Source of the DNA: a bacterium
GTDB taxonomy: Bacteria; Myxococcota_A; UBA9160; UBA4427
Direction: 5' to 3'
Assembly (NCBI GenBank): GCA_024742285.1
Contig: JANSYR010000018.1
Span: 1 to 64,000, forward strand
DNA: 64,000 bases
A program made the position numbers and the translations under genes. The notes beneath the pieces are model-generated. The model had not been told where the DNA came from. It saw nothing but the letters and a program-made list of their open reading frames with translations, and did not search any database. Shown in pieces: positions 43,734-47,382 of the stretch. How positions within the stretch are numbered: the stretch's first letter is position 1; each line of letters starts with the position of its first letter.

Positions 43734-44246
43734 ATGGACATCAAGCGCTACTTCGTCGATCAACTGAAGGGCGTGTACCAGGAGCGGATCGCGAACGCCG
43801 GCCAGGCCGAGTCGAGCTCCGCGGACGCCGCGGAGCACATCCGCGGCGAGTCGTCCCGGCGCGAGGACGCCAAGGCCGCCGCGATGGAGGGGCGGCTCGC
43901 GTCGGGCCATCGACGCCGGCGGAAACAGGCGGTCACCGAGATGGAGACCCTGCTCGACTTCGCCGAGAAGGGGATCAAGCGCTATCGGCCGACCGATCGC
44001 GTCGGCCTCGGCGCGATGGTCGACGTCCGGATCGAGGACGACGAGGGGGAGGAGGAGCGCACCCTGATCGTGCTTCCGGTCGGGGCGGGGGAGGCGCTGA
44101 CCGGGCCGGGCGGCGATGGCTGGGTCCAGGTCGTCACGCCGAAATCCCCTGTGGGGAAAGCGCTCGTGGGGGCTCGGGAAGGGGACTCCTTCGAGATCGT
44201 GGTCGACGGCCGCGATCGAGAGTGGACGGTCGTCGACCTCGGCTGA
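43734..44246 (+). CDS. GreA/GreB C-terminal-domain protein
   Basis: The protein has 170 residues. The N-terminal half is charged and helical (DAAEHIRGESSRREDAKAAA) but does not match the GreA coiled coil closely. The C-terminal FKBP-like part has DRVGLGAMVDVRIEDDEGEE, LIVLPVGAGE and VVTPKSPVGKALVGAREGD, the typical GreA/GreB ending. Gre factors rescue backtracked RNA polymerase; this protein more likely belongs to the Rnk-like or Gre-domain relatives that bind polymerase without the cleavage tip. It is separated from neighbours by 167 and 233 bases. Confidence 0.8.
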   Translation: MDIKRYFVDQLKGVYQERIANAGQAESSSADAAEHIRGESSRREDAKAAAMEGRLASGHRRRRKQAVTEMETLLDFAEKGIKRYRPTDRVGLGAMVDVRIEDDEGEEERTLIVLPVGAGEALTGPGGDGWVQVVTPKSPVGKALVGAREGDSFEIVVDGRDREWTVVDLG

Positions 44247-44379: not shown

Positions 44380-44408
44380 TGGACGTGGGAAAAATTCCCG
44401 CTTATACA
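44380..44408 (+). promoter_or_regulatory. Predicted sigma-70-like promoter carrying an operator
   Basis: TGGACG (44380-44385) as -35 and TATACA (44403-44408) as -10 are separated by exactly 17 bases, and that spacer is filled by the palindrome at 44385-44401. Transcription would start near 44415 and read the secreted-protein gene at 44480. Each box matches the consensus at four of six positions. Confidence 0.5.
44385..44401. promoter_or_regulatory. 17-base palindromic operator, copy 1
   Basis: GTGGGAAAAATTCCCGC: arms GTGGGAA and TTCCCGC around AAA, one mismatch from the perfect palindrome. It sits between the predicted -35 and -10 boxes. Confidence 0.7.
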
Positions 44409-44414
44409 GGGAAG

Positions 44415-44431
44415 GTGGGAAAAATTCCCAC
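44415..44431. promoter_or_regulatory. 17-base palindromic operator, copy 2
   Basis: GTGGGAAAAATTCCCAC is a perfect inverted repeat (7-base arms, AAA centre), starting 30 bases after copy 1, about three helical turns. It ends 48 bases before ATG 44480, in the expected early transcribed region. Confidence 0.75.
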
Positions 44432-44479
44432 ATACACCTGCCCGCGGCCTCGCCCGGGCGCATCCCCGTGAGGATCCCC

Positions 44480-44968
44480 ATGACTGCATCTCTTTCGTTC
44501 CGATCGATCGTCCTGGCCGGCTTCGTCGTGCTCGCCACGGCCGCCACCGCACACGCCCAGCGGGTCGTCTCCGACGCAGAGCTCGGTGACGCGCGCCCCG
44601 AGGCGGAGCTTCGCCTGGACATGCGCGAAGCCGTGGAGCGGGACACCGACACGGTGAACACCGCGCTCGTCTTCAACAACCCGAATGCCCAGACGGCCCA
44701 CGTCATGTGCCGCGCCTACGACTCGAACGGAAACCACATGGGACGCCGTGTCGTCGGCGTCCCCGGAAACGGCGTGCGCTACCTGCGCGCTTCGGACTTC
44801 TCGCGCGGCGGCGACTTCATCGGCGCCGCCGTCTGTTCGTCTCGGACGCGCGTCGCCGCGAGCGCGGTCCTGCTCGCGCCCGGCGCCATCACGAACCTCG
44901 ACGTGATCCAGGCCGACGCCTGGGACGACACGAACCGCGTGCGCTTCCCGCTGATCGCGACCTACTGA
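44480..44968 (+). CDS. Secreted protein of unknown family under palindrome control
   Basis: The protein has 162 residues. ATG 44480 follows GAGGA at good distance. The signal peptide is SIVLAGFVVLATAATAHAQ. The mature part has NTALVFNNPNAQTAHVMCRAYD, GRRVVGVPGNGVRYLRASD, GGDFIGAAVCSSRTRVAASAV and AITNLDVIQAD, a beta-rich pattern with two cysteines that could form a disulfide. I recognise no family. Two copies of a 17-base palindrome lie in its promoter region, and the same motif occurs before the DUF6502 gene, so a common regulator is likely. A strong hairpin (45055-45085) follows. Confidence 0.8.
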   Translation: MTASLSFRSIVLAGFVVLATAATAHAQRVVSDAELGDARPEAELRLDMREAVERDTDTVNTALVFNNPNAQTAHVMCRAYDSNGNHMGRRVVGVPGNGVRYLRASDFSRGGDFIGAAVCSSRTRVAASAVLLAPGAITNLDVIQADAWDDTNRVRFPLIATY

Positions 44969-45054
44969 CGGACGCCGTGATCTGCGCGCCCGATCCGTCG
45001 AACGCCTCGCCAACGTGTTCGCGGGTCGGGGAGCCGTGAGGTGCGGCTCGAAGG

Positions 45055-45085
45055 AGGCGCCGGACGGGATTCCCGTCCGGCGCCT
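45055..45085. terminator. Strong hairpin between convergent genes
   Basis: AGGCGCCGGACGGGA (45055-45069) and TCCCGTCCGGCGCCT (45071-45085) form a 15-base perfect stem around one unpaired T, in practice a tighter loop. CTTCGTTGG follows. It separates the secreted-protein gene from the minus-strand DUF5666 gene. Confidence 0.75.
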
Positions 45086-45123
45086 CTTCGTTGGGAGCGG
45101 GTCGTCGAAGGCGCGCGGTGGCC

Positions 45124-46434
45124 CTATCGCGCGAGGCGCCGGTCGAGCGCCGGCGCTCGCGGCCGGACCGCCGGCCGTTGGAGATCCCGCGCCGCCTTCG
45201 GTCGCATCGGTCGCGGCGGCGGGCCGACCTCGTCGCGCGGACGTCGTTTGGGACGCTCCGGGATCGCATCCGGTCGGGGCGGCTGGTCCGTGGGCCGCGT
45301 GCCCATGGGACCGGGCCGCGACGGCGCGGGTCGGGTCGGCATCACTCGCAGGACGCCGTCGCTCTCGATCCGTCCTCCCACCCGGAGCCGTGCGCCGGGC
45401 CGGATCGCGCGGCGAATCGCGTCCGGCGTGTCCTCGGGTACGGCGAGCTCGAGGCGGCCGATCCGGGGGCGGGCCTCGCGCCCGCCGACGAAGCCCTCGA
45501 CGGAGGCGTAGTCGATGCGGCCCTCGCGGCGCGCTTCCAGGAGCCGCGCGGCCAGCGTCGCCTCGAAGGCGGTGTCGGGAGCACGCGTTTCTCCCGCGCG
45601 TCCGGGCGCGATCCGCGTCGCGACCAGCTCGCCGTCGGGGCCGAGCTGGGCCTGGAAGGCGATCCATCTGCCCGGCGCGAGCTCGGCGTCGTCCAGGGAC
45701 GGGGAGCGGGTGGTGCTCTCGCGCAGTCGCAGTCGCCTGCCGTCGACGACGAGCGTTCCGTCTTCGTCACGCCGCTCGATCCGCCCGGCGCCGTCGCGCG
45801 CGACCACGATGCGCCGGGCGACGACGCCGTCCGCGGTCCGGACGGCTTCGACCAGCACGAGCTGCCCGGACGCCAGGCTTCGCGGGACGCCTTGGCCATC
45901 GGCGCCGGACGACGACTCGAGCGCCAGGCTCTCGGGGATCACGACTTCGACGCCACTCACGCAGACCCGCGCGCGTCGCCCTCGACCACCGCCTTCGGGA
46001 TCCGCGGAACCGCGCCCGACCGGTTCGGCGCGGCCGAAGAGGCCGAGACCGCGCGGGGCCGGACCGGCGTCGTCGGGGCCATCGCCATCCGAGACGGGCC
46101 CCCGTCCGGTGCCGCCGATGCCGCTGTCATCGTCGTCTCCGCCGGACGTACGCTGCATGCGGTCGCCGCGTGCAGGGCTCGATTCATCGGGACCGAAGCC
46201 GGTCCCGCCGAGACCGCTGTCGTCGGGACTGAAGGTGGTTCCGCGGAGACCGCTGTCGTCGGGACCGAAGCCGGTCCCCCCGATGCCGCTGTCGTCGTCG
46301 CCCGGCTCGAGGACGTGGATCGGGTGGCCGGCTCGCCCGCCGCCGCAGGTCTCGGTCGCGCCGCTCGGAAGCGGCGACAGCGACGCGAAGAGCGCGATGA
46401 TCGTGAGGGTGAGGAGCCGACGGCGATCAGTCAT
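45124..46434 (-). CDS. DUF5666-domain secreted protein with DDSGxGGTG repeats
   Basis: The protein has 436 residues. The signal peptide (LLTLTIIALFASLSPLPSGATE) is followed by four copies of a unit DDSGxGGTGFGP at about 47-115 (DDSGIGGTGFGP, DDSGLRGTTFSP, DDSGLGGTGFGP, DDSGIGGTGRGP). Residues about 150-365 hold repeated small beta domains of the DUF5666 type (VCVSGVEVVIPES, LASGQLVLVEAVRTADG, ARRIVVARDG, LAPGRWIAFQAQLGPDGELVATRI). The tail is Pro/Arg-rich and probably disordered. The family is of unknown function. Its start overlaps the DUF6502 stop by 8 bases. Confidence 0.8.
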   Translation of the reverse strand: MTDRRRLLTLTIIALFASLSPLPSGATETCGGGRAGHPIHVLEPGDDDSGIGGTGFGPDDSGLRGTTFSPDDSGLGGTGFGPDESSPARGDRMQRTSGGDDDDSGIGGTGRGPVSDGDGPDDAGPAPRGLGLFGRAEPVGRGSADPEGGGRGRRARVCVSGVEVVIPESLALESSSGADGQGVPRSLASGQLVLVEAVRTADGVVARRIVVARDGAGRIERRDEDGTLVVDGRRLRLRESTTRSPSLDDAELAPGRWIAFQAQLGPDGELVATRIAPGRAGETRAPDTAFEATLAARLLEARREGRIDYASVEGFVGGREARPRIGRLELAVPEDTPDAIRRAIRPGARLRVGGRIESDGVLRVMPTRPAPSRPGPMGTRPTDQPPRPDAIPERPKRRPRDEVGPPPRPMRPKAARDLQRPAVRPRAPALDRRLAR

Positions 46435-47305
46435 CGCTGCCTCCGTCTGCGTCCCCCGACGAGTCCTGCGGTGCTCGGAAGAACCACGCGCCGAAGCTCA
46501 TACGCTGACTCGCGTCGCTCTCGCCCGCGTCGGCGGCCTGGAGCTCGAGCGCGCGCGCGTTCACGCGTTGCAGCGCCTCCATGCCCGCCTCGCGGGCGAG
46601 GGCCTGGAGCTCTTCGACGGACTCCGGGCGGAGGTGGGCGTAGTAGACGCTTCGTTCGAGGAAGGGCGCGCCCACGCCGGTGAGGTTGTGACGCGCGGCC
46701 GCGAGGTGGTCGCGCACGTTGCGCCCCAGGTAGTAGGCCTTCTCCTCGAAGCCTTCCGACGGCACGAAGGCCTCCTCCACGAGGACGACGCGATCCTCGG
46801 CATCGAGTCGGGCGATGCCGAGGCGCAGCCACTCGTCGAGCACCGCGCGAGGGCGGATGTCCTGGGTGACCGCCTGCACGAGACCGTCGAAGGTCGGGCG
46901 GCCGTCCTCGGTCGCGAGTCGCGGCAGGGCGAGGGGGCGTCCGTCTCCATCGCGATAGGTGGGATCCGCGGTCCAGCGCAGCGCGAGCTGCGCGCCGAGG
47001 GAGACGCTCGGCGGGACGGCCGGGCGGGGCTCGCCCGCTTCCGCCTGGAGTCGCTTCACGTCCTTGCGGTGGATGCCGGTGAGCAGGGTGAGACGGCTGA
47101 TCGTCTGGGGCCGGTCGGGCAGGGCGTAGCCGCGCTCGGCCTCACCCACGTAGATCCGTTTCAGCAGGCCGGCGAGGGTCGGGAACGTGATCTGGTGATC
47201 GAGGAGCAGGCGGACGAGGGGGGCGAGCAGCCGCTCGACGGCATCGAGGAGCGCGCCGGAGGGACGGCCGGCGGACGTGGGGCTCTCCTCGGTTTCTCGG
47301 GCCAT
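46427..47305 (-). CDS. DUF6502 family protein, possible DNA-binding regulator
   Basis: The protein has 292 residues from ATG 47305 (MARETEESPTSAGRPSG). Residues about 20-90 match the DUF6502 pattern LLAPLVRLLLDHQITFPTLA, LKRIYVGEAERGY, then SRLTLLTGIHRKDVKRLQAE, which looks like a helix-turn-helix with recognition helix GIHRKDVKRL. The middle has a DAEDRVVLVEEAFVPS strand and the C-terminus helices. It is the first gene of an operon with the DUF5666 gene. A copy of the 17-base palindrome lies 61 bases upstream of its start, as expected for self-regulation, though DNA binding is inferred. Confidence 0.8.
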   Translation of the reverse strand: MARETEESPTSAGRPSGALLDAVERLLAPLVRLLLDHQITFPTLAGLLKRIYVGEAERGYALPDRPQTISRLTLLTGIHRKDVKRLQAEAGEPRPAVPPSVSLGAQLALRWTADPTYRDGDGRPLALPRLATEDGRPTFDGLVQAVTQDIRPRAVLDEWLRLGIARLDAEDRVVLVEEAFVPSEGFEEKAYYLGRNVRDHLAAARHNLTGVGAPFLERSVYYAHLRPESVEELQALAREAGMEALQRVNARALELQAADAGESDASQRMSFGAWFFRAPQDSSGDADGGSDD

Positions 47306-47365
47306 GTTCGTCGTCCGACTCCCGCCGATCGCCGCGCCGTCGTCTCGCGCGGGGACGCCAAGTGA

Positions 47366-47382
47366 GTGGGAAAAATTACCAC
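47366..47382. promoter_or_regulatory. 17-base palindromic operator, copy 3
   Basis: GTGGGAAAAATTACCAC differs by one base from the perfect palindrome at 44415-44431. It lies 61 bases before the DUF6502 start on the minus strand and 105 bases before the divergent SDR start, so either gene could be controlled. Confidence 0.65.

Follow-up and report, generated by a model that had tools for sequence, protein, structure and literature searches.

A conserved 17-base palindrome as the probable operator of DUF6502, an uncharacterised protein family linked to exported proteins

The window, that is, the whole stretch of 64,000 nucleotides that was analysed, contains three 17-base palindromes with a GTGGGAA-N3-TTCCCAC-like consensus, two of them before the gene of a secreted protein at 44480 and the third before a DUF6502 gene that is followed by a DUF5666 gene (Table 1), and the question raised by this locus is which protein reads them and to what effect. 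A preliminary description of this DNA had proposed that DUF6502 acts as a repressor. Our results, obtained in the absence of binding or expression data, make it highly probable that the palindromes are operators of DUF6502 and that this protein represses its own operon together with the 44480 gene.

Table 1. Features of the window involved in the proposed control by DUF6502
Feature	Coordinates	Strand	Description
Probable promoter of the 44480 gene	44380-44408	+	-35 TGGACG (44380-44385), -10 TATACA (44403-44408), 17-bp spacer
O1, putative operator 1	44385-44401	+	GTGGGAAAAATTCCCGC; between the -35 and -10 boxes of the 44480 gene
O2, putative operator 2	44415-44431	+	Perfect palindrome GTGGGAAAAATTCCCAC; 30 bp from O1; about +1 to +17
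O3, putative operator	47366-47382	-	GTGGGAAAAATTACCAC; towards DUF6502 reads GTGGTAATTTTTCCCAC; ends 60 bp before the DUF6502 start codon
Exported protein, 162 aa	44480-44968	+	Signal peptide; invariant C77 and C119; predicted beta-sandwich; no Pfam family
Exported DUF5666 protein, 436 aa, GIGGTG motif	45124-46434	-	PF18914, 50.9 bits (curated cut-off 27 bits)
DUF6502 protein, 292 aa, probable repressor	46427-47305	-	PF20112; predicted HTH, residues 69-89, recognition helix HRKDVKRLQ

The positions given earlier for the three palindromes (44385, 44415 and 47366) were found to be exact. A scan of the 6.55-Mb genome with the pattern GTGGKAANNNTTMCCAC, allowing at most one mismatch, recovered the three window sites plus a single one on contig 7, which was rejected as an operator because it sits within a coding frame. 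The preliminary description had seen no further copy in the window, and this absence extends to the genome as a whole except for that intragenic near-match; many random genomic copies, which would have refuted the proposal, were not found (three intergenic copies and one intragenic match in 6.55 Mb). The chance expectation for the palindrome matches with up to three mismatches was 0.02. A literature search with the motif halves returned only unrelated DNA, such as primers and Notch/CSL sites.

Pfam matches and the presence of a signal peptide agreed with the gene contents previously named, namely, the secreted 44480 protein, DUF6502, and DUF5666. The DUF6502 protein matched PF20112 along residues 18-249 (E 4e-31, 108.2 bits, curated Pfam cut-off 27 bits), and the DUF5666 gene, at its start, shares 8 bp with the end of DUF6502, stop codon included (ATGACTGA, 46427-46434). 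In related loci, the gene directly 3' of DUF6502, often with a 4-bp overlap, codes for an exported protein that bears a GGIGGTG motif, and 69 of the 74 proteins encoded directly downstream of DUF6502 showed a DUF5666 match, which bears out the link between both families claimed earlier. Overlapping neighbours annotated as DUF6502 and DUF5666 were also found on plasmids of Methylocystis, Azospirillum, Rhizobium, and Pseudoroseomonas. Pfam gives no function for DUF6502 (PF20112) or DUF5666 (PF18914); no paper naming DUF6502 or PF20112 appeared in a literature search whose coverage left out most subscription journals and preprints, and DUF5666 is mentioned in a few papers, in those examined no more than in passing.

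Regarding the 44480 protein, Pfam returned nothing above cut-off, the only hit being DUF4307 with 14.2 bits, below the cut-off of that family. Its predicted fold had 1nc7 (TM1070) as best structural match (Z 9.2, 3.1 A over 96 residues), with Z values of about 6 over 71-79 residues for structures of the Anabaena sensory rhodopsin transducer (ASRT; 2ii7), a weak profile match in the TM1070/ASRT comparison (E 0.65), and no ASRT match in Pfam. Any likeness to this ASRT/Thermotoga TM1070 fold lies in the predicted beta-sandwich, whereas the signal peptide, the two invariant cysteines, and the lack of a Pfam match above cut-off set the 44480 protein apart. In addition, a protein with a GreA/GreB C-terminal domain is encoded between a cyclophilin and the 44480 protein (43734-44246), in an order kept in the nearest relative (L064).

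Conservation of the palindrome near DUF6502 homologues, set as a test by the preliminary description, was observed across two phyla. DUF6502 was present in 34 of 60 genomes of relatives, most of those with at least about 45% identity showing the palindrome shortly upstream of the gene. A scan of species genomes, comprising 54 named DUF6502 loci from Myxococcota and Gamma-, Beta-, and Alphaproteobacteria, revealed a near-identical palindrome just 5' of DUF6502 in most of them, with the form ATGGGAAAWTTTCCCAT in Alphaproteobacteria (Pseudovibrio, Roseibium, and others). The picture is the same for plasmid-borne homologues from Alphaproteobacteria (Methylocystis, Azospirillum, Pseudoroseomonas, and Microvirga; four additional loci), and in two Rhizobium loci, it lies instead downstream of the DUF5666 gene, beside TTGACA in the one inspected. 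Under our own scoring scheme, the best upstream palindrome was unique and had a centre of length 3 for 52 of the 71 distinct DUF6502 genes in the window subfamily. The 250 bp upstream of DUF6502 contained sites scoring at least 11 of 12 at 183 times the density seen in the rest of the named loci. Other genes of this subfamily (e.g., L015, L018, L022, L025, L026, and L086) showed no recognisable upstream site, and in some of their genomes, the palindrome pair precedes the exported-protein gene. Finally, in some Gamma- and Betaproteobacteria (L079, L083, L089, and L091), tandem palindromes were separated by 58-64 bp, which corresponds to about six helical turns and not to three as in the window.

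The co-occurrence of palindrome and protein was analysed in 282 genomes, an even sample of the phylum, in which PF20112 was detected in 27, the strict palindrome in 15, and both in 14. In other words, the strict palindrome was present in 14 of the 27 DUF6502 genomes versus one of the 255 genomes without the protein (Fisher p 1.7e-15). The control, consisting of the reversed pattern, appeared in a single genome of the 282. Two genomes, G004 and G014, presented palindromes without detected DUF6502, their assemblies being incomplete (76% and 91%, respectively). Some different sort of repeat, such as mobile-element ends or terminators, or mere chance could also be invoked for the palindromes, given that they are short and AT-rich, and that on the minus strand, a terminator-like stem coincides in part with O1. 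However, we give this possibility almost no credence, in view of the three copies in 6.5 Mb, all at intergenic promoter positions, the conservation of this position across phyla, the enrichment in density upstream of DUF6502, and the near absence of the control pattern.

Even if the palindromes are operators, this does not by itself identify the protein bound to them, and another transcription factor could be the binder, with DUF6502 merely among its targets. The lack of direct binding data and the few genomes with palindromes and no detected DUF6502 leave room for it, but the palindrome and DUF6502 co-occur across two phyla, so that an unseen regulator would need to follow DUF6502 wherever it is found, and DUF6502 has a predicted HTH of its own. 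The best evidence came from the comparison of two subfamilies. The DUF6502 protein of the window belongs to a subfamily apart from the core one, which scores highest against the PF20112 model and forms a separate clade (support 100/100). Genes of the core subfamily lack the palindrome with a 3-base centre and often show TTGGGAA-N4-TTCCCAA in the same place, and the recognition helix reads TGIHRKDVKRLR in the window subfamily (centre 3) versus TGLTRKEASRL in the core subfamily (centre 4). With the count restricted to unique best sites that scored 10 or more, the window subfamily had a 3-base centre in 52 sites, a 4-base centre in one, and another length in three, whereas the core subfamily had a 4-base centre in nine and another length in one (Fisher p 5e-10). 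As the operator, in its centre length and outer bases, changes together with the subfamily and its recognition helix, DUF6502 itself is likely the binder, and another factor seems very unlikely.

The same genome encodes a DUF6502 paralogue on contig 1, at 100578 (L143), within a DUF5666-like - DUF6502 - DUF5666-like row whose flanking genes were assigned by eye, and TTGGGATTTTTTTCCCAA, with a 4-base centre (L143:179-196), precedes the first gene of this row. A further 4-base-centre palindrome, ATGGGAATATATTCCCAA, was found in L235 and L237 (at 1501) before a gene (MTATQLNFERLELKYLID...) which we take to resemble a VTC/polyphosphate polymerase domain and which is perhaps a target of the paralogous core subfamily.

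The helix-turn-helix-like segment reported before in DUF6502 was recovered as a confident HTH prediction, although only in a model (AlphaFold2, pLDDT 89, pTM 0.78), with helices at residues 69-76 and 80-89 (pLDDT about 95) and near-invariant residues S70, T76, G77, H79, R80, K81, D82, V83, R85, and L86. The predicted layout includes this N-terminal HTH, a second winged-helix-like segment (99-175, or 139-175 in a narrower delimitation), and two long C-terminal helices. The HTH superposes on known DNA-binding domains with 1.5-2.4 A over about 50 residues and Z of about 6, the structural alignment being limited to its region (about 40-94) and involving the IclR, CRP, GntR, TetR, and DeoR families; since the fold-search scores stay below Z 8, this match has to be considered generic. 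No PDB chain matched the DUF6502 sequence at E 1 or better, so that no solved relative was identified by sequence, Foldseek gave no match at E 0.001, and searches with NCBIfam and PADLOC produced no matches. HetR, with Z 6.5 but an rmsd of 11.6, was set aside as a structural relative.

The arrangement of sites over the target promoters suggests how such a protein could act. In the window, the claim that O1 fills the 17-base spacer of a predicted promoter is correct to within one base, but a strict sigma-70 scan of this stretch called no promoter, and the boxes of the 44480 gene are weaker than those of relatives (TTGACG and GATAAT-like). Homologues of the 44480 protein were found in 20 of the 60 relatives, one of them as a broken remnant, and palindromes were located upstream in 15 of the 20 copies of the gene, with no site in the other five. 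The 15 copies with palindromes include genes unlinked to DUF6502 (e.g., in G013, G027, G022, G025, and G056), in support of the link to the secreted protein proposed earlier. The tandem pairs before these homologues are spaced 30-39 bp apart, with a mode of 30. For a count of the promoter layout, 26 distinct tandem pairs separated by 30-39 bp were used, excluding those of DUF6502 itself; TTGAC abuts the distal palindrome exactly in 16 of them and with four of five bases in eight more, and a TATAAT-like -10 box follows it in relatives, as in L139 (cTTGACGTGGGATTATTTCCCACcGATAATctatatGTGGGAAAAATTCCCAC). Consequently, the distal palindrome fills the 17-bp spacer, overlapping the target promoter, and the proximal one lies near +1, which, as far as the sequence can tell, is the layout of a repressor acting by promoter occlusion.

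An operator within the -35/-10 spacer is also a feature of MerR-type promoters, and DUF6502 could bind the palindromes and mainly activate, or do both, for instance through MerR-like remodelling of the spacer. The poor appearance of its own promoters, none of which could be clearly recognised, would fit such a role. However, MerR-type activators correct spacers of 19-20 bp, whereas the DUF6502 targets have the optimal 17 bp with -35 boxes near consensus, and a second operator at about +1, where activators rarely help. No MerR HTH domain was detected by Pfam in DUF6502, and we regard activation as unlikely, repression being the preferred reading.

Beyond the 44480 type, the other proteins encoded after such palindromes in relatives likewise start with signal peptides, pointing to a regulon of exported proteins, although its membership differs between lineages. 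Among these proteins are an outer-membrane-like protein (Phenol_MetA_deg, PF13557), small cytochrome-c-like proteins, and charged exported proteins with RGDGSxDD repeats. Behind tandem palindromes in L089 (5407-6000), L076, L073, and L128, we found exported proteins of no Pfam family, with repeats like GGLKLRGDGSVDDTQPG and long charged ERPERVERP tails, and behind operators in L067, L125, L129, and L134, a conserved exported protein of 520 aa (RRSLFVTELDVVQ...CAGCHQ) without significant Pfam match. In addition, a palindrome with TTGAC located upstream of DUF6502 in L101, L103, L104, and L108 faces an exported gene that diverges from DUF6502, and a single operator may therefore act both ways. 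A divergent SDR gene was discarded as a conserved target, as this neighbour varies by lineage (AMP-ligase-like, glycosyltransferase, or CcmA-like).

In the mechanism that we propose, a DUF6502 homodimer would read the half-sites GTGGGAA and TTCCCAC, about one helical turn apart, through the recognition helix of its N-terminal HTH. Bound at O3, it would repress its own operon, formed by DUF6502 and the translationally coupled exported DUF5666 protein. O1 and O2 are about three helical turns apart and thus on the same DNA face, and DUF6502 bound at both would lie over the transcription start of the 44480 gene as well as over the spacer between its -35 and -10 boxes, excluding RNA polymerase. Release of DUF6502 would come from a signal as yet unidentified, which its C-terminal half may sense, and the exported proteins would then be switched on together. 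Sites, conservation, co-occurrence, promoter layout, the match of operator to subfamily, and the predicted HTH were obtained by computation, whereas binding, dimerisation, repression, O1-O2 cooperativity, and the inducer are inferred. The repressor role claimed in the preliminary description is hence supported by the conserved sites at its own gene and by the repressor layout, but neither binding nor the sign of regulation has been shown experimentally, and the "envelope response" assigned to the regulon is a guess.

If this is correct, a family of unknown function present in two phyla can be assigned a testable role in repression, together with its DNA target and the genes that it controls, and a conserved group of exported proteins under common control comes into view. 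Operator recognition can be tested with the two paralogous subfamilies in one genome and their palindromes with 3- and 4-base centres, and direct testing is possible in the cultured Azospirillum, Methylocystis, and Rhizobium strains that carry the system. More tentatively, and with considerable doubt, DUF6502 could comprise transcription factors from Pseudomonadota and Myxococcota, the subfamilies using different operators (centre 3 or 4, outer base), each with an exported GGIGGTG/DUF5666 partner that helps to signal surface conditions back to the repressor; if true, this pairing of a cytoplasmic repressor with an exported sensor would be one undescribed so far.

In conclusion, DUF6502 very probably represents an uncharacterised family of autoregulated HTH repressors of exported proteins and not a new type of mechanism, the novelty lying in its operator and in the operator code of its two subfamilies, undescribed to our knowledge. 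Unlike the TetR, IclR, and LexA-type families, it has no match to HTH families of Pfam or NCBIfam and no solved relative by sequence, but it resembles their autoregulated repressors in the inferred HTH dimer, in the palindrome over its own and its target promoters, in the small local regulon, and in the occupation of both the spacer and +1.
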